Shown here piece by piece: positions 27,952 through 62,529 of a DNA stretch of 64,000 nt (its first letter is position 1; every line of letters starts with the position of its first letter). Source of the stretch: Corynebacterium coyleae. GTDB lineage: Bacteria; Actinomycetota; Actinomycetes; Mycobacteriales; Mycobacteriaceae. The notes beneath the pieces are model-generated. The model was not told the DNA's origin and did no database searches. It was given only the letters and a program-made list of their open reading frames with translations. The stretch spans positions 1,302,001 through 1,366,000 of the forward strand of contig NZ_CP047198.1 in NCBI RefSeq assembly GCF_030408635.1, read 5' to 3'. The translations under genes were made by a program, and so were the position numbers.

Positions 27952-29163
27952 CTACTGTGCGCCGGTGTAAAAAGCCGACAGTGCGCGCACGAAGTAATCC
28001 ATGTCGTCCACTCCGCACAGCTCGCGCGCGGAGTGCATGGACAAAAGCGACACACCCACATCGACCGTCGGAAGGCCCAGACGCGTCGAGGAAATCGGTC
28101 CAATCGTCGACCCGCACGGCACAGCGTTATTGCCCACAAAGGTTTGGTGTGGCACGCCGGCAGCGCGGCACGCCAGGATCCACTCGGCTTCCGTCGCTGC
28201 ATTGGATGCGTAGCGCTGGTTGGCGTTGATCTTCAGCACCGGACCCTTGTTGATCAGCGGGTGATGCGTCGGATCGTGCTTGCCCGGGTAGTTCGGGTGC
28301 ACCGCGTGCGCCGCGTCGGCGGAAACCTGGATGGAGTTCGCGATAATCTCAGACGGTTCGCCGAATGCCGCCGCAACCTTGGTCAGGACGCGCTCTAGCA
28401 TCGGGCCACCGGCTCCGGCGGTGGATGCAGAGCCCACCTCCTCGTGGTTAAACGCCGCAAGCACCAGGATGTCCTGGGCATCGTCCTTGGCTGCGAGCAT
28501 CGCCTCGAGCGACGCCCACACACTGGTCAGGTTATCCAGGCGACCAGCGGCCAGAAGATCACCGATGACCTCGCCCCGCTGTGCGTCCGCGGTGATAAGT
28601 TCGTGCGCCACGATGTCGTCTGCAGCAAGGCCCGCCGACTCCGCCGCTAGCTCGAGCAGCGGACGGTCCACACCCAGGATCGGCTGGGTGTGGACCTGGC
28701 GGTCGATCTCCGGCATGTCACCCCGGTAGAGGTGGATAGCCAGGTTGGGAACGCGCGCAACCGCACCCGTGTTCACGAGGTGTTCCTTACGGTCGGTGGT
28801 CACCACTCGACCGGCGAAGGTGAGGTCGCGATCGAACCAGCTCGCCAGGATCGGCCCGCCGTAGACCTCGGTGGCAACCTGGCGGAACCCTTCGCGCACG
28901 ACATCCGGATCGGGCTTGGCCATCAGCCCAGGCGAGTCCGTGTGCGAGCCGACAACACGGAACCGCGGGTTGGGGTTTTCCGGGACCCACCACGCAATCA
29001 CGGCGCCATCGCTGATGATGAGGTGGCCGCCGGGGCGTGTGGCGTCGTCGTCAAGCACTGCCCGGCGAGTAAACCCTGCTGCCTCGAGGCTTGTGGCGAC
29101 GTTTTCCGCCGCGTGATAAGCGGATGGACTCTGGCTGATGAAATCGATGAACGGCTGTGTCAT
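27952..29163 (-). CDS. apeB: M18 family aminopeptidase
   Basis: A 403-aa zinc aminopeptidase. Metal-site motifs GSHTDSPGL, AAFNHEEVGSASTAGAGGPM and the C-terminal VDVGVSLLSMHSARE are all present. It removes acidic or other N-terminal residues from peptides in the cytoplasm and could act on peptides left after protein breakdown. It ends 15 bp before trmI and starts within a few bp of the divergent nuclease gene. Confidence 0.93.
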   Translation of the reverse strand: MTQPFIDFISQSPSAYHAAENVATSLEAAGFTRRAVLDDDATRPGGHLIISDGAVIAWWVPENPNPRFRVVGSHTDSPGLMAKPDPDVVREGFRQVATEVYGGPILASWFDRDLTFAGRVVTTDRKEHLVNTGAVARVPNLAIHLYRGDMPEIDRQVHTQPILGVDRPLLELAAESAGLAADDIVAHELITADAQRGEVIGDLLAAGRLDNLTSVWASLEAMLAAKDDAQDILVLAAFNHEEVGSASTAGAGGPMLERVLTKVAAAFGEPSEIIANSIQVSADAAHAVHPNYPGKHDPTHHPLINKGPVLKINANQRYASNAATEAEWILACRAAGVPHQTFVGNNAVPCGSTIGPISSTRLGLPTVDVGVSLLSMHSARELCGVDDMDYFVRALSAFYTGAQ

Positions 29164-44375: not shown

Positions 44376-44461
44376 GCCCGGGTGGCGGAATGGCAGACGC
44401 GCTAGCTTGAGGTGCTAGTGTCCTATTAACGGACGTGGGGGTTCAAGTCCCCCTCCGGGCA
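44376..44461 (+). tRNA. tRNA-Leu (anticodon GAG)
   Basis: Acceptor 5' GCCCGGG pairs with TCCGGGC at the 3' end. The anticodon stem CTAGC/GCTAG encloses TTGAGGT, giving anticodon GAG. A long variable arm (GTGTCCTATTAACGGAC region) is typical of class II tRNA-Leu, and the T-loop is GGTTCAAGTCC. CCA is not encoded. The GAG anticodon reads CUC and CUU. Confidence 0.95.
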
Positions 44462-44468
44462 CAGATAA

Positions 44469-44515
44469 GTCCCGCTCAGCAGTCAATAGAACTGCGGAGC
44501 GGGACATTTATATTT
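44469..44515 (+). terminator. Terminator after tRNA-Leu
   Basis: GTCCCGCTC (44469-44477) pairs with GAGCGGGAC (44497-44505), with CAGT/ACTG pairing inside, followed by ATTTATATTT. Confidence 0.85.
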
Positions 44516-49082: not shown

Positions 49083-50137
49083 TTTGCGCTACCCGGTCGG
49101 CCCGGGTGCTTCAACGGTTCGCAGCAATGCGGCTTGCACGGCGCGCCGTTGACGGTACAACCCTGAACTGTAACGTTAGACAAGGTTTCAGGCTTGTCAC
49201 CATCAGCGATAGCTTGCGCGATATCGACGAGCATGCCAGCGAAATCGGGCTCGAGCCCCACCGTCGCAACGCGATCTAGCGTGATGTTGCGTGCCTCGCA
49301 GGCCTGTCGCAGCTCGGTGTCGAGGTCCCAGATCACCTCCATGTGGTCGGTGATGAAGCCGAGTGGCACACAGATCAAGTGCGTAAAGGTGCTGTCTTGA
49401 TCATGGAGTTCCTCGGTGCGATCGACGATGTCCGGCTCCAACCACGGCGTTGCCGGATTGCCGGAGCGAGACTGCCAGACAACCTCGTACTCTTCGACGC
49501 CGGCCTCTGCAGCGACCAGCCGGGCCGCCTCATGCACCTGCCGTGAGTACAGGTTGGCATCCTCCGGGCCACCTGAGACATCATCCGCAGCATTCGGAAC
49601 ACTGTGAGCAGTGAACAGTACTTTTGCACCAGCCGGCGCTGCATCGACGGCGCTACGCAACACGTTCGCCATAAGCCGCACGAACGTCGGGTGGGCGTAG
49701 AACTGCCAAAGCTTGGTGTACTCAAGCTGCGGCGTCACTTCGCGGATCCTCTGGATGTCTTCGTCGTACTGTCGGCAGGCCGAGTACCCACCCCATGCCG
49801 AGGTCGCGAAAACCAGCACGCGCTTATGCCCGTCAGCCTCCAGCTGCTTCGCAGCATCTTCCGCAAAGGGGTGCCAGTTCCGGTTGCCGAAGTACACCGG
49901 AAGTTCAATCCCCCGAGCCTCCAACTGTTTTTCGATGTTGCCAATCAGCACTCGGTTCTGTTCATTGATCGGGCTAACACCACCGAAGTGGAAGTAGTGT
50001 TCCCCTACCTTGGCGAGCCGCTCACGCGGAATCCCGCGGCCACGGGTGACATTCTCTAGAAAAGGAATAACCTCCTCCTTTCCTTCGGGTCCACCGAAGG
50101 AAAGGAGGAGGAGTGCGTCGTAGTCGTTGAGAGCCAT
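49079..50137 (-). CDS. hemH: Ferrochelatase (coproporphyrin ferrochelatase type)
   Basis: A 352-aa protein. It starts MALNDYDALLLLSFGGPE and contains HFGGVSPIN, the catalytic His in LFTAHSVP and the distal Glu in PLGFITDHMEVIWDLD. The C-terminal Cys-rich tail (TVQGCTVNGAPCKPHCCE) likely binds a [2Fe-2S] cluster, as in other actinobacterial ferrochelatases. In this phylum the enzyme inserts iron into coproporphyrin III. Codons 9-22 form a perfect 18-bp inverted repeat in the mRNA. The gene lies downstream of the NlpC/P60 gene and converges on the 251-aa protein. Confidence 0.95.
   Translation of the reverse strand: MALNDYDALLLLSFGGPEGKEEVIPFLENVTRGRGIPRERLAKVGEHYFHFGGVSPINEQNRVLIGNIEKQLEARGIELPVYFGNRNWHPFAEDAAKQLEADGHKRVLVFATSAWGGYSACRQYDEDIQRIREVTPQLEYTKLWQFYAHPTFVRLMANVLRSAVDAAPAGAKVLFTAHSVPNAADDVSGGPEDANLYSRQVHEAARLVAAEAGVEEYEVVWQSRSGNPATPWLEPDIVDRTEELHDQDSTFTHLICVPLGFITDHMEVIWDLDTELRQACEARNITLDRVATVGLEPDFAGMLVDIAQAIADGDKPETLSNVTVQGCTVNGAPCKPHCCEPLKHPGRPGSAN
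50071..50111 (-). promoter_or_regulatory. Perfect 18-bp inverted repeat at the 5' end of the hemH coding region
   Basis: CCTCCTCCTTTCCTTCGG (50071-50088) and its exact complement (50094-50111) are separated by 5 nt. In the mRNA the hairpin begins 26 nt after the start codon and covers codons 9-22 (LLLLSFGGPEGKEE). Confidence 0.85.
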
Positions 50138-50168
50138 AGCCTTGAGCCTAGACTGTGGCCCCGAAAAA

Positions 50169-51827
50169 TTAGAGCAGGCGGACCGCGTTAGGCGCCATGC
50201 CGGACCAACGGACCGGAGAAATCTGCACGTTCATGCCGGACTGCGGTGCCTCGATCATGGTGCCGTCGCCGAGGTAGATGGCAACGTGCTGGTTGCCGCC
50301 CGGACCCCAGAACAGCAAGTCGCCGCGCTGCGCTTCGCTCGCCGGCACATGCGTGCCACGCTGGTACTGGTAGCCCGTGTAGTGGGGCAATGCAATGCCA
50401 GCGCCGGCGAATGCGTAAAGCACGAGGCCAGAGCAGTCGAAACCAGCTTGACCGCCACCTTCCAAGCCCGTGGTTGGACCGTTTGCATCGCCACCGCCCC
50501 AGACATACGGCGTGCCGATCATCGACTGAGCGCGTGCGATAACCGTCTCAACCTGAGAGGCGTCGGATACGGCCGCAGAGGCAGCACGAGCCTTCTCAGT
50601 AAGATCTGTCGCAGTCTGCACCTGCGGCAATACGTCAGCCACAGTGCCTGAGGTGCTATCGACATTGCCCAAGGCACCAGTGAGCCCTTCTGCGAACGCA
50701 GTCACAAGTTGGCCTGCGTCACCGCTATTCACCGCATCAGAGAAGGAGCCGTGGTTCGCAGCAACGCCGCCAACCAGGGCCACGCCGACGGCGATGGCGC
50801 CAGCCTTCGCGATAGCGTCGTCGTCAAGCTGTGGCAAGCCTGCTGCCGAAGAAAGCGCAGCAACCTGGGACACGTCGTCGGACGTCGTATCTGAAGAAGA
50901 GGTCTGGGCGACAACACGCACGGCATCCACGATGGCCTCACGGCTCGGCTCACCGGCTTCAGGGGAGGTACCAGAGATGCGCTCCCGAACACGGTCCACG
51001 ACCTCTTCTGGGACCTCATAGGTGGCATCGCCGCGCGAAATGGTCAGGGTTGAAGCGTACGGGCTGGCCACAGGGCCCTCCGTTGACTCATCGGATGCTT
51101 CCTGCTGCTCAGGCGCACGCTGCTCCTGGAGATCAGATTGTGCTGCTTCGAGCTCGCGTTGCGCGGCGTCGCGCTCAGCCGTGCTTGCCTCGAGCGCTGC
51201 GCGGTTGTCGTCGAGAAGCTGACGCGCTTGCGCCTCCGCAGCCTCGGCTTCTTGAGCAGCCGAGTCGGCAAGCTCACGCGTCTGACGCAGCGTCGACTCT
51301 TCGTTCGCCGCCTCTGCACGGGCCTGCTCCGCTTCCTGCAGCTTCGCACGCTTTTCTTCAGAACGCTGGCGCAGGAACAGCGAGCGATCCAGCACGTCGC
51401 GCTGCGTGTCCTTACCGCTAATCGACGTGAGCACATCGCTTGTCGACGCCCCGCGATACTGGGAACGGCTTAACTCATCAAGCTCGGCGCGCAGCTTTTC
51501 GACGCGAGCCTGAGCCTCGTCCAGGCGACGCTTAGCTTCCTCTTCGCCGAGGCGGGCCTGCTGGGCCTTTGCATGAGCGTCGTGCAAATCGACGAGCGAC
51601 TGGTTAACCGCCTCTTGCAGTTCGCCGAGGTTCAAGTTTCGGGCGTCCACGTCCGCTTGAGCGCGGGTGACTGCGGAAACGAGTTCGCTGACGGTAGACG
51701 TCGAGCTCTGACCAGAGGCAGCCGGGCTGACGAGGCCCACCGCCAACGACACGGTAACGACACACGCGGCAGTACCGAACACATTACGTGCACGTCCAAA
51801 CCGGGTGCCCCTTAGTGGATTTGCCAC
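50169..51827 (-). CDS. Secreted NlpC/P60 peptidoglycan endopeptidase (RipA/RipC-like)
   Basis: A 552-aa protein from GTG 51827 with AAGGAG 7 nt upstream. An N-terminal signal peptide (FGTAACVVTVSLAVGLVSPAASG) is followed by a long coiled coil (residues ~45-240, Ala/Glu/Arg-rich), a Pro/Ser-rich middle and a C-terminal NlpC/P60 domain with catalytic C465 (FDCSGLVLY), His in QHVAIYLGDG and a third polar residue. It cuts D-Glu-mDAP bonds at the septum. The coiled coil normally keeps the enzyme inactive until an activator binds. The block acn / Rv1476-like / this gene matches Rv1475c-Rv1476-ripA. A 568-bp gene-free leader precedes it. Confidence 0.93.
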   Translation of the reverse strand: MANPLRGTRFGRARNVFGTAACVVTVSLAVGLVSPAASGQSSTSTVSELVSAVTRAQADVDARNLNLGELQEAVNQSLVDLHDAHAKAQQARLGEEEAKRRLDEAQARVEKLRAELDELSRSQYRGASTSDVLTSISGKDTQRDVLDRSLFLRQRSEEKRAKLQEAEQARAEAANEESTLRQTRELADSAAQEAEAAEAQARQLLDDNRAALEASTAERDAAQRELEAAQSDLQEQRAPEQQEASDESTEGPVASPYASTLTISRGDATYEVPEEVVDRVRERISGTSPEAGEPSREAIVDAVRVVAQTSSSDTTSDDVSQVAALSSAAGLPQLDDDAIAKAGAIAVGVALVGGVAANHGSFSDAVNSGDAGQLVTAFAEGLTGALGNVDSTSGTVADVLPQVQTATDLTEKARAASAAVSDASQVETVIARAQSMIGTPYVWGGGDANGPTTGLEGGGQAGFDCSGLVLYAFAGAGIALPHYTGYQYQRGTHVPASEAQRGDLLFWGPGGNQHVAIYLGDGTMIEAPQSGMNVQISPVRWSGMAPNAVRLL

Positions 51828-52978: not shown

Positions 52979-53050
52979 GATCTATGGCGGGTCGCTTAGT
53001 ATGGGACTTGACCATAGGGTCATCATCCCTGTTTTTGATTACGACGAGGA

Positions 53051-55840
53051 ATGGAGCTCACCGTGGCAGAAAGCAAGAATTCCTTCGGTGCCAAGAAGAC
53101 GCTCGAGGTTGGCGGTAAGTCTTACGACTACTTCGCTCTCGATGCTGTTGAAGGCATGGAGAAACTCCCCTACTCCCTTAAGGTGTTGGGCGAGAACCTC
53201 CTGCGCACCGAGGACGGCAAGAACGTCACCGAAGACCACATCAAGGCCATTGCAAACTGGGACCCGTCGGCAGAGCCGAGCGTTGAGATCCAGTTCACCC
53301 CAGCACGTGTGCTGATGCAGGACTTCACGGGCGTGCCGTGTGTCGTCGACCTTGCCACCATGCGTGAGGCCGTATCGTCGCTCGGCGGCAACCCGGATCA
53401 GGTCAACCCCCTGAACCCGGCAGAGATGGTTATTGACCACTCTGTGATCATCGAGGCCTTTGGTTCCACCGATGCCATCGAGAAGAACGTAGAGATTGAG
53501 TACCAGCGCAACGAGGAGCGCTACCAGTTCCTGCGCTGGGGTGCAGAGAACTTCTCTAACTTCCGCGTTGTCCCGCCGGGAACCGGCATCGTCCACCAGG
53601 TCAACATCGAGTACCTCTCCCGCGTTGTCTTTGACAACGACGGCGTTGCATACCCGGACACCTGCATTGGTACCGACTCCCACACCACCATGGAAAACGG
53701 CCTGGGCATCCTTGGCTGGGGCGTCGGCGGTATCGAGGCTGAGGCAGCGATGCTTGGCCAGCCGGTCTCCATGCTCATCCCGCGCGTTGTCGGCTTCAAG
53801 CTCACCGGCGAGATTCCGACCGGCGTGACCGCAACCGACGTGGTGCTGACCATCACCGAGATGCTGCGTGAGCACGGCGTGGTCCAGAAGTTCGTCGAGT
53901 TCTACGGCAACGGTGTCAAGCAGATCCCGCTGGCAAACCGCGCCACCATCGGCAACATGTCCCCAGAGTTCGGCTCCACCTGCGCGATCTTCCCGATCGA
54001 CGAGGAGACCATCAACTACCTGCACCTGACCGGTCGTAACCAGGAGGACATCGACCGCGTCGAGGCATACGCCAAGGCACAGGGCATGTGGCTTGAGCAG
54101 GACGCTGCGGAAGCTGAGTACTCCGAGTACCTCGAGCTCGACCTCTCCACCGTCAAGCCGTCTATCGCTGGCCCGAAGCGCCCGCAGGACCGGATCCTGC
54201 TCGCGGAGTCCAAGGAGACCTTCCGCAAGCAGCTGCCGGACTACAACACCGCTGGCGAGGGCACGTCCGAGCCGGTTCGTGCAGCAAAGGTCGACAGCGT
54301 CTCCTACAACGAGTCTTGGCCGGCAAACGGCGAGTCCGCTGCTGTGGGTGCTGAGGGCCGCGCTTCCAAGCCGGTCATCGTCGAGTCCCCGCAGGGTGGC
54401 GAGTACACCCTCGACCACGGCTTCGTCGCAATTGCTGCAGTCACCTCCTGCACCAACACCTCCAACCCGTCCGTCATGGTTGGCGCTGCCCTGCTCGCAC
54501 GCAAGGCTGCTGAGAAGGGCCTGAAGGCTAAGCCATGGGTCAAGACCATCATGGCTCCGGGCTCCCAGGTTGTCGACGGCTACTACGAGCGCGCAGACCT
54601 CTGGAAGGACCTCGAGGCTGTTGGCTTCTACCTGTCCGGCTTCGGCTGCGCATCCTGCATCGGCAACTCTGGCCCGCTGCCGGCTGAGGTCTCCGAGGCT
54701 GTCAACGAGTTTGACCTCACCGCAACCGCAGTGCTTTCCGGCAACCGCAACTTCGAGGGTCGTATCTCCCCGGACGTGAAGATGAACTACCTCGCGTCCC
54801 CGCTCTTGGTCATTGCATACGCAATCGCCGGCACCATGGACTTCGACTTCGAAACCCAGCCGCTCGGCCAGGACGCAGACGGCAACGACGTCTTCCTCAA
54901 GGACGTCTGGCCGTCCACCGAGGAGATCGAAGAGACCATCGCTGGCACCATCTCCCGTGAGATGTACGAGGCTGACTACGCCGACGTCTTCAAGGGCGAC
55001 GCACAGTGGCAGGGTCTCGACATCCCGACCGGCAAGACCTTCGAGTGGAACGAAGACTCCACCTACATCCGCAAGGCACCGTACTTTGACGGCATGCCGG
55101 AGGAGCCGGAGGATGTCAAGGACATCGAGGGTGCTCGCGTTCTGGCGAAGCTGGGCGACTCGGTCACCACGGACCACATCTCCCCTGCTTCCTCCATTAA
55201 GCCGGGCACCCCGGCTGCGAACTACCTCGATTCCCACGGTGTTGAGCGCCAGGACTACAACTCCTTCGGCTCCCGTCGTGGCAACCACGAGGTCATGGTT
55301 CGCGGTACCTTCGCAAACATCCGTCTGCGCAACCAGCTGGTTGATGAGCAGGGTGGATTCACCCGCGACTTCACCCAGGAGGGTGCACCGCAGGCATACA
55401 TCTACGATGCTGCGATGAACTACGCCGAGAAGAACATTCCGCTCGTCGTCCTTGCTGGTAAGGAATACGGCACCGGTTCTTCCCGTGACTGGGCTGCTAA
55501 GGGCACCAACCTGCTTGGTGTGAAGGCAGTTATCGCCGAGTCCTTTGAGCGCATCCACCGTTCCAACCTGATCGGTATGGGTGTTCTGCCGCTGCAGTTC
55601 CCGGAGGGCCAGTCCCACGAGTCCCTCGGCCTCGACGGCACCGAGACCTTCACCCTGTCCGGTATCACCGACTTCAACAAGGGTGACATCCCGGCAACGG
55701 TTCACGTCAAGGCTGAGAAGGACGGCGCTGACGCTGTCGAGTTCGACGCTGTTGTCCGCGTGGACACCCCAGGTGAGGCTGAGTACTACCGCCACGGCGG
55801 CATTCTGCAGTACGTGCTTCGCCAGATGGTCAAGAGCTAG
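53051..55840 (+). CDS. acn: Aconitate hydratase
   Basis: A 929-aa AcnA-type aconitase. The start [21 protein letters not shown] matches the C. glutamicum enzyme. The [4Fe-4S] ligands are C467 (TSCTNTSNP), C533 and C536 ([12 protein letters not shown]). C-terminal domain motifs [16 protein letters not shown] and [13 protein letters not shown] are present. It interconverts citrate and isocitrate in the TCA cycle. Strong codon bias (few rare codons) indicates high expression. An AcnR-type operator lies upstream, acnR follows downstream, and a strong terminator stands between. Confidence 0.98.
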
Positions 55841-62504: not shown

Positions 62505-62529
62505 GCCGGGCCGACTCCGTCGGCCCGGC
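62505..62529 (+). terminator. Strong GC hairpin after istB
   Basis: GCCGGGCCGAC (62505-62515) and GTCGGCCCGGC (62519-62529) form an 11-bp perfect stem with a 3-nt loop, 9 nt after the istB stop. No T-run follows. It may end istAB transcription or shield the element from outside reading. Confidence 0.6.

Follow-up and report, generated by a model that had tools for sequence, protein, structure and literature searches.

A codon-encoded hairpin and U-rich tail within Corynebacterium hemH as a candidate intrinsic terminator for the upstream ripA-type gene

The terminator of the Escherichia coli frdABCD operon doubles as the attenuator of ampC, and is the nearest precedent for the arrangement described below. 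In Corynebacterium glutamicum, the amino-acid operons ilvB, leuA, and trpE are described as carrying leader-peptide attenuators (PMC4046766; this and the other papers cited are drawn on in excerpt). The available portions of two further studies report the mapping of RNA 3′ ends internal to open reading frames in E. coli and Borrelia (PMC7815308, PMC10319736). Leaderless mRNAs are reported to be common in Corynebacterium (PMC3890552, PMC5784534), and the excerpted text puts their share at 33% of C. glutamicum mRNAs (PMC3890552). C. glutamicum Cg1735, DIP1281, and Mycobacterium tuberculosis RipA were assigned to one clade of cell-separation hydrolases, according to the portion available (PMC9897464). 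The hemH gene of C. glutamicum was reported to be repressed by HrrA, and to be heme/iron-responsive through this regulator; HrrA binding near hemH appears there as a table row (PMC7337898).

The locus compared here with these systems lies in a 64-kb window (the whole stretch of C. coyleae DNA that was analyzed), in which a ferrochelatase gene, hemH, follows a co-directional NlpC/P60 gene, called ripA below (Table 1). The assignment of hemH is based on matches above cutoff to NF000689 and TIGR00109, and on Pfam PF00762; the upstream gene matches NF046048 above cutoff (DIP1281-family NlpC/P60). An initial annotation of this DNA had described a hairpin within the first codons of hemH, with two 18-nt arms lacking any mismatch, a 5-nt loop, and a start 26 nt after the AUG. 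This geometry was reproduced in full: the arms, at 50071-50088 and 50094-50111, are 100% complementary and separated by 5 nt, and the 5′ arm starts 26 nt past the A of the hemH ATG at 50137. The stem comprises hemH codons 9 to 23, so that the translated region overlaps the putative terminator stem, and the hairpin stretch encodes the peptide LLLLSFGGPEGKEEV.

Table 1. Features of the ripA-hemH region, in window coordinates.
Feature	Position	Strand	Remarks
hemH, ferrochelatase, 352 aa	49079..50137	-	ATG at 50137; profile matches
U-rich tail right after stem	50057..50070	-	codons V-I-P-F-L; synonymous U enrichment in hairpin genomes
Perfect hairpin, 18 bp, 5-nt loop, within hemH frame	50071..50111	-	codons L-L-L-L-S-F-G-G-P-E-G-K-E-E
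ripA stop to hemH ATG gap, 31 nt	50138..50168	-	between the two genes
-10-like hexamer TAGGCT, predicted leaderless promoter	50145..50150	-	ends 7 nt before hemH ATG
ripA, DIP1281-family NlpC/P60 gene (RipA-type cell-separation hydrolase)	50169..51827	-	upstream of hemH, co-directional

Among the perfect inverted repeats of the window with spacings of at most 15 nt, the hairpin is the longest. The second longest perfect spaced repeat, a 13-nt inverted repeat with 6-nt spacing, lies at 28665-28696. The GC-rich, 18-bp stem has a stability of -34.9 kcal/mol, and the minus strand of 50061-50168 folds at -51 kcal/mol, compared to a mean of -31.92 kcal/mol for 200 dinucleotide shuffles, none of which (0/200) folded as well. 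When 200 synonymous variants of the hairpin stretch were sampled from the codon usage of hemH itself, none (0/200) reached the native energy (-35.6 versus a mean of -16.1, sd 3.9). Rfam covariance models, applied to the whole window at the gathering score, returned a tRNA as the sole match, placing the hairpin in no known RNA family. Elsewhere in the window, a 918-aa open frame (53039-55795, minus strand) runs antisense to an aconitase-like gene of 929 aa (53051-55840, plus strand) and covers nearly all of it; this frame is probably an artefact of codon composition.

A match to hemH was found in all of the 201 Corynebacterium genomes searched (201/201), of which 130 were analyzed and 71 left out; the 130 come mostly from the top of the match list, and are not a random sample. 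For each gene, the 48-nt hairpin stretch was compared with 200 synonymous recodings, with codons drawn from the rest of the gene. Across the 130 genes, the stretch had a mean energy of -24.6, versus -17.0 after recoding (mean z -1.92), while 38 other 48-nt stretches of hemH, used as controls in the same test, gave mean z values between -0.68 and +0.29. As the initial annotation had noted, the pairing extends through third positions; it was stronger than codon usage predicts, at p≤0.05, in 81 of the 130 genes. In 28 of the 130, the pairing is absent (p>0.2). The genomes were grouped accordingly into 81 hairpin genomes (p≤0.05), 21 intermediate genomes (p 0.05-0.2), which were excluded from two-group comparisons, and the 28 without hairpin.

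The codon choices behind the pairing are specific to the hairpin genomes. At the two Leu codons of the stem, CTC was used in 76/80 and 74/81 of these genomes (26 expected at each position), and the Glu codons were GAG in 44/44 and 78/79; in genomes without the hairpin, CTC occurred in 5/23 and 10/25. The FGGPE codons are self-complementary, and the inner stem is therefore favored by the protein, while the rest of the stem depends on codon choice. The recoding null, with its 38 control stretches, excludes chance or codon bias as the origin of the hairpin, as does the absence of the same codon bias from the 28 hairpin-less genomes. The hairpin is thus not a product of chance or codon usage, and the structure is under selection in many Corynebacterium.

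Changes on both sides of the stem were seen at four pairs. In close relatives, which carry LLVLSFGGPEGEDEV, GTC pairs with GAC where CTC pairs with GAG in the window. The register of the window (at least 15 of 18 pairs formed) was present in 68/130 genomes, and the outer helix was paired one codon shifted in 14 more; 48 match neither register at those cut-offs. Against the maximum of 1000 column shuffles, the fraction of paired cells showed a narrow excess in the main register (0.927 versus 0.925), and a clearer one in the shifted register (0.930 versus 0.923). At one site, the third base of the Val codon at -3 and the first base of the codon at +6 were, among V...xEE genomes, A-T in 23/30, G-C in 5/7, and C-G in 5/13, a synonymous covariation that lends partial support to the pairing.

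Two features of the locus do not appear in the initial annotation: the promoter-like hexamer TAGGCT, and a U-rich stretch that follows the stem. Past the stem, from 50070 down to 50057, the window reads TTATTCCTTTTCTA, or, by codon, TT ATT CCT TTT CTA. The Phe codon after the stem was TTT in 76/81 hairpin genomes, where 24 were expected from the usage of each genome, and in 7/28 genomes without the hairpin, where 9 were expected. The T content of the five codons (15 nt) past the stem was 7.91 versus 5.88 expected (z 2.63) among the 81 hairpin genomes; past the same position, it was 7.05 versus 5.70 in the 21 intermediate genomes (z 1.99), and 5.93 versus 5.44 in genomes without the hairpin (z 0.64); z values at 13 other places in hemH ranged from -0.26 to 0.21. 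Since the enrichment is present in hairpin genomes and slight at most in hairpin-less ones, stem and tail appear and vanish together.

By a d'Aubenton-Carafa-type terminator score, the hairpin and tail reach 37.9, the second-highest value on either strand of the window. Scores were above zero in 50/81 hairpin genomes, the number being limited by the shifted register, in which the U run starts several nucleotides off the stem. The hairpin and U tail carry the features that define an intrinsic terminator and can be read from sequence; their position is inside hemH, 68 to 98 nt downstream of where the ripA frame stops. The top score of the window (44.3) belongs to 62505-62529 on the minus strand, where an 11-bp perfect GC stem is followed by TGTTTGTCTTATT, in a region that is intergenic by crude gene calls. 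Just past a tRNA at 44376-44461, a hairpin at 44469-44505 scores as terminator-like on both strands, and is possibly a bidirectional terminator.

Within the gap between ripA and hemH (50138-50168), a scan for Shine-Dalgarno-like 5-mers gave none, and no terminator was scored. Such 5-mers were found before hemH in 2/129 genomes. A TANNNT hexamer ending 6-8 nt upstream of the closest in-frame ATG that could serve as a start was present in 126/129 genomes, and in 109/109 of those having a single possible ATG, against a background of 1.9% elsewhere; an earlier choice of start codons had favored a -10-like box, and both counts are based on a naive choice made without that preference. These patterns suggest that hemH looks leaderless. 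In the 6/78 hairpin genomes with gaps of 14 nt or less, the hexamer touches the ripA stop. A candidate internal Shine-Dalgarno sequence within the 3′ arm (AGGAGGAGG) was abandoned, as no start codon is suitably spaced from it.

The ripA stop codon was placed in 125/130 genomes, with approximately 2.5 kb of upstream sequence fetched for 40 genomes, and shorter upstream sequence used for L172, L176, and L116. The median gap between the genes was 32 nt in hairpin genomes and 95 nt in genomes without the hairpin. Scored intergenic terminators were found in 0/78 stop-placed hairpin genomes, a lack that is partly due to their short gaps, versus 14/27 stop-placed genomes in which both the hairpin pairing and the U tail are missing (Fisher 2e-10, uncorrected for relatedness). 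Among intermediate genomes with a placed stop, 6/20 had an intergenic terminator. No scored intergenic terminator was present in 13/27 of the hairpin-less genomes either, and in 6/27 the gap was no longer than 60 nt. An intergenic terminator before hemH and a scoring hemH stem occur together in at least three genomes (L149, L185, and L187), which possibly represent intermediate layouts. In a small clade (L117, L118, and L119), the gap is 19 nt, the stem inside hemH is degraded, and terminator scores do not exceed zero, which might indicate a ripA-hemH operon. On a quick LG+G4 tree of hemH (built without the first codons, and not a species tree), at least nine changes of hairpin state are required, with 3 to 4 well-supported independent pairs; phylogenetic pairing across these supported pairs gave no significant association, and was underpowered.

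The in-frame hairpin and the U-rich codons of hemH probably form an intrinsic terminator that ends ripA-type transcripts, and which the leaderless hemH mRNA would escape by being translated; we favor this reading with modest confidence. Selection on the structure, the U tail, the gene order, the gap and terminator pattern, and the promoter-like box are shown by computation; in vivo termination, its action on ripA transcripts, and the passage of hemH transcription owing to translation are inferred. The hemH promoter would occupy the usual place of the ripA terminator: because the 31-nt gap, which holds that promoter, is too short for a terminator, the latter would have been displaced downstream into hemH, and written into approximately the first 27 codons through the selection of codons and, at a few positions, of amino acids. 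On read-through RNA from ripA, the hemH AUG lacks a Shine-Dalgarno sequence, and so no ribosome would enter, the hairpin would form, and RNA polymerase would stop. The hemH promoter would instead yield a leaderless mRNA, with the AUG as its 5′ end, which a ribosome could enter directly. Once approximately 7 to 9 codons in, this ribosome would cover the 5′ arm and melt the stem, and transcription would therefore go on. When the first 34 to 40 nt were masked in a fold calculation, the long stem disappeared and weak stems were left. By this model, the ribosome may load before the hairpin stops the polymerase. The wider idea, that a synonymously written hairpin sorts transcripts, by stopping read-through RNA and sparing the gene's own leaderless mRNA as it is translated from the first nucleotide, is held tentatively, and we consider it possible but rather doubtful.

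The main rival is an attenuator that acts mainly on hemH: the hairpin would stop hemH transcripts unless translation is quick, so that output tracks the state of the ribosome, heme, or iron, and the ending of ripA transcripts would be incidental. The anatomy, with a hairpin and U tail soon after a leaderless start, fits such a device, and hemH is already heme/iron-responsive via HrrA in C. glutamicum, as the excerpted report has it (PMC7337898). We nevertheless regard it as unlikely, for it leaves unexplained why intergenic terminators occur in about half of the stop-placed hairpin-less genomes and in none of the hairpin genomes, and a conserved alternative structure that could serve as a switch was not seen. 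Fold predictions aimed at an antiterminator, as a ribosome-mediated attenuator would employ, yielded small, non-conserved alternatives only. In the window, the start codon is predicted by fold calculation to lie inside a stem on the read-through RNA; this stem is not general, the AUG being unpaired at 0.45, versus 0.40 for the surrounding RNA, across the 81 hairpin genomes.

Somewhat less likely still is an element that acts post-transcriptionally as double-stranded RNA, whether through processing, by RNase III or otherwise, by shielding the 3′ end of ripA, or by making ribosomes slow down. An 18-bp perfect duplex is present, and many C. glutamicum 3′ ends were reported to lie inside terminator stems, for which dsRNA cleavage was suggested in the text available (PMC3890552). 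The synonymously selected U tail, however, is needed for none of these roles. The same difficulty confronts the roles put forward by the initial annotation, namely slowed translation, RNase III attack, or a thermometer, which are not supported as the main function: none of them requires a co-occurring U-rich tail, and they do not account for the missing intergenic terminators of hairpin genomes.

That the hairpin is a by-product of coding, free of selection, appears very improbable. The F-G-G-P-E segment (TTC GGN GGN CCN GAA) is self-complementary, Leu codons with a final C and Glu codons with a final G are frequent, and the inner TTCGG/CCGAA is largely set by the protein; non-Corynebacterium relatives among 80 named loci also fold at approximately -12 to -24 kcal/mol here. 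A null that keeps both protein and codon usage is still beaten in most of the analyzed genes, though, the U tail is enriched as well, and hairpin-less genomes do not share the codon bias. That the palindrome is a DNA binding site of a regulator (HrrA or DtxR, for example) is scarcely credible, even with the HrrA binding listed near hemH in the C. glutamicum excerpt (PMC7337898), since the two arms change in concert, and can move to another register without loss of pairing, unlike a fixed protein site, and the signal is one-sided, with the U tail on one flank.

If the transcript-sorting idea is true, termination would sense the origin of a transcript through its mode of translation start, and compact genomes could end one transcript after the start of the next gene, at the expense of free codon choice in the gene for an essential enzyme. 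Since leaderless genes are common in Corynebacterium, the same arrangement could recur, and could have been overlooked because terminator surveys favor intergenic sites. When hemH is recoded to produce heme in Corynebacterium, the stop signal of a cell-wall hydrolase gene may be lost.

A limited search of the open literature, seen in part, found no description of a terminator that belongs to one gene and is preserved through synonymous codons within the leaderless gene that follows, and the C. glutamicum excerpts mention no 3′ end for the ripA-hemH pair. The hemH element resembles intrinsic (Rho-independent) terminators in its GC-rich stem, short loop, U-rich tail, and positive d'Aubenton-Carafa-type score; such terminators are usually intergenic, whereas the hemH candidate sits within the following reading frame, where synonymous codons preserve it. 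The ORF-internal ends of E. coli and Borrelia are similar to the hemH proposal, in that transcripts end within reading frames, but the available portions of those studies stress Rho, processing, or regulation (PMC7815308, PMC10319736). With the ilvB, leuA, and trpE attenuators, the proposal shares a translating ribosome that decides whether the terminator forms; unlike these operons, hemH is without a leader peptide, no rival antiterminator stem was found, and the translated frame is that of the enzyme gene itself. The frdABCD/ampC pair is like the arrangement proposed for ripA/hemH in its overlapping neighbors: the downstream promoter precedes the terminator that serves the upstream unit, and ribosomes are proposed to allow the downstream transcript through. 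The frdABCD/ampC terminator, however, is situated in an untranslated leader, and the putative one of hemH in the coding part of a predicted leaderless mRNA.
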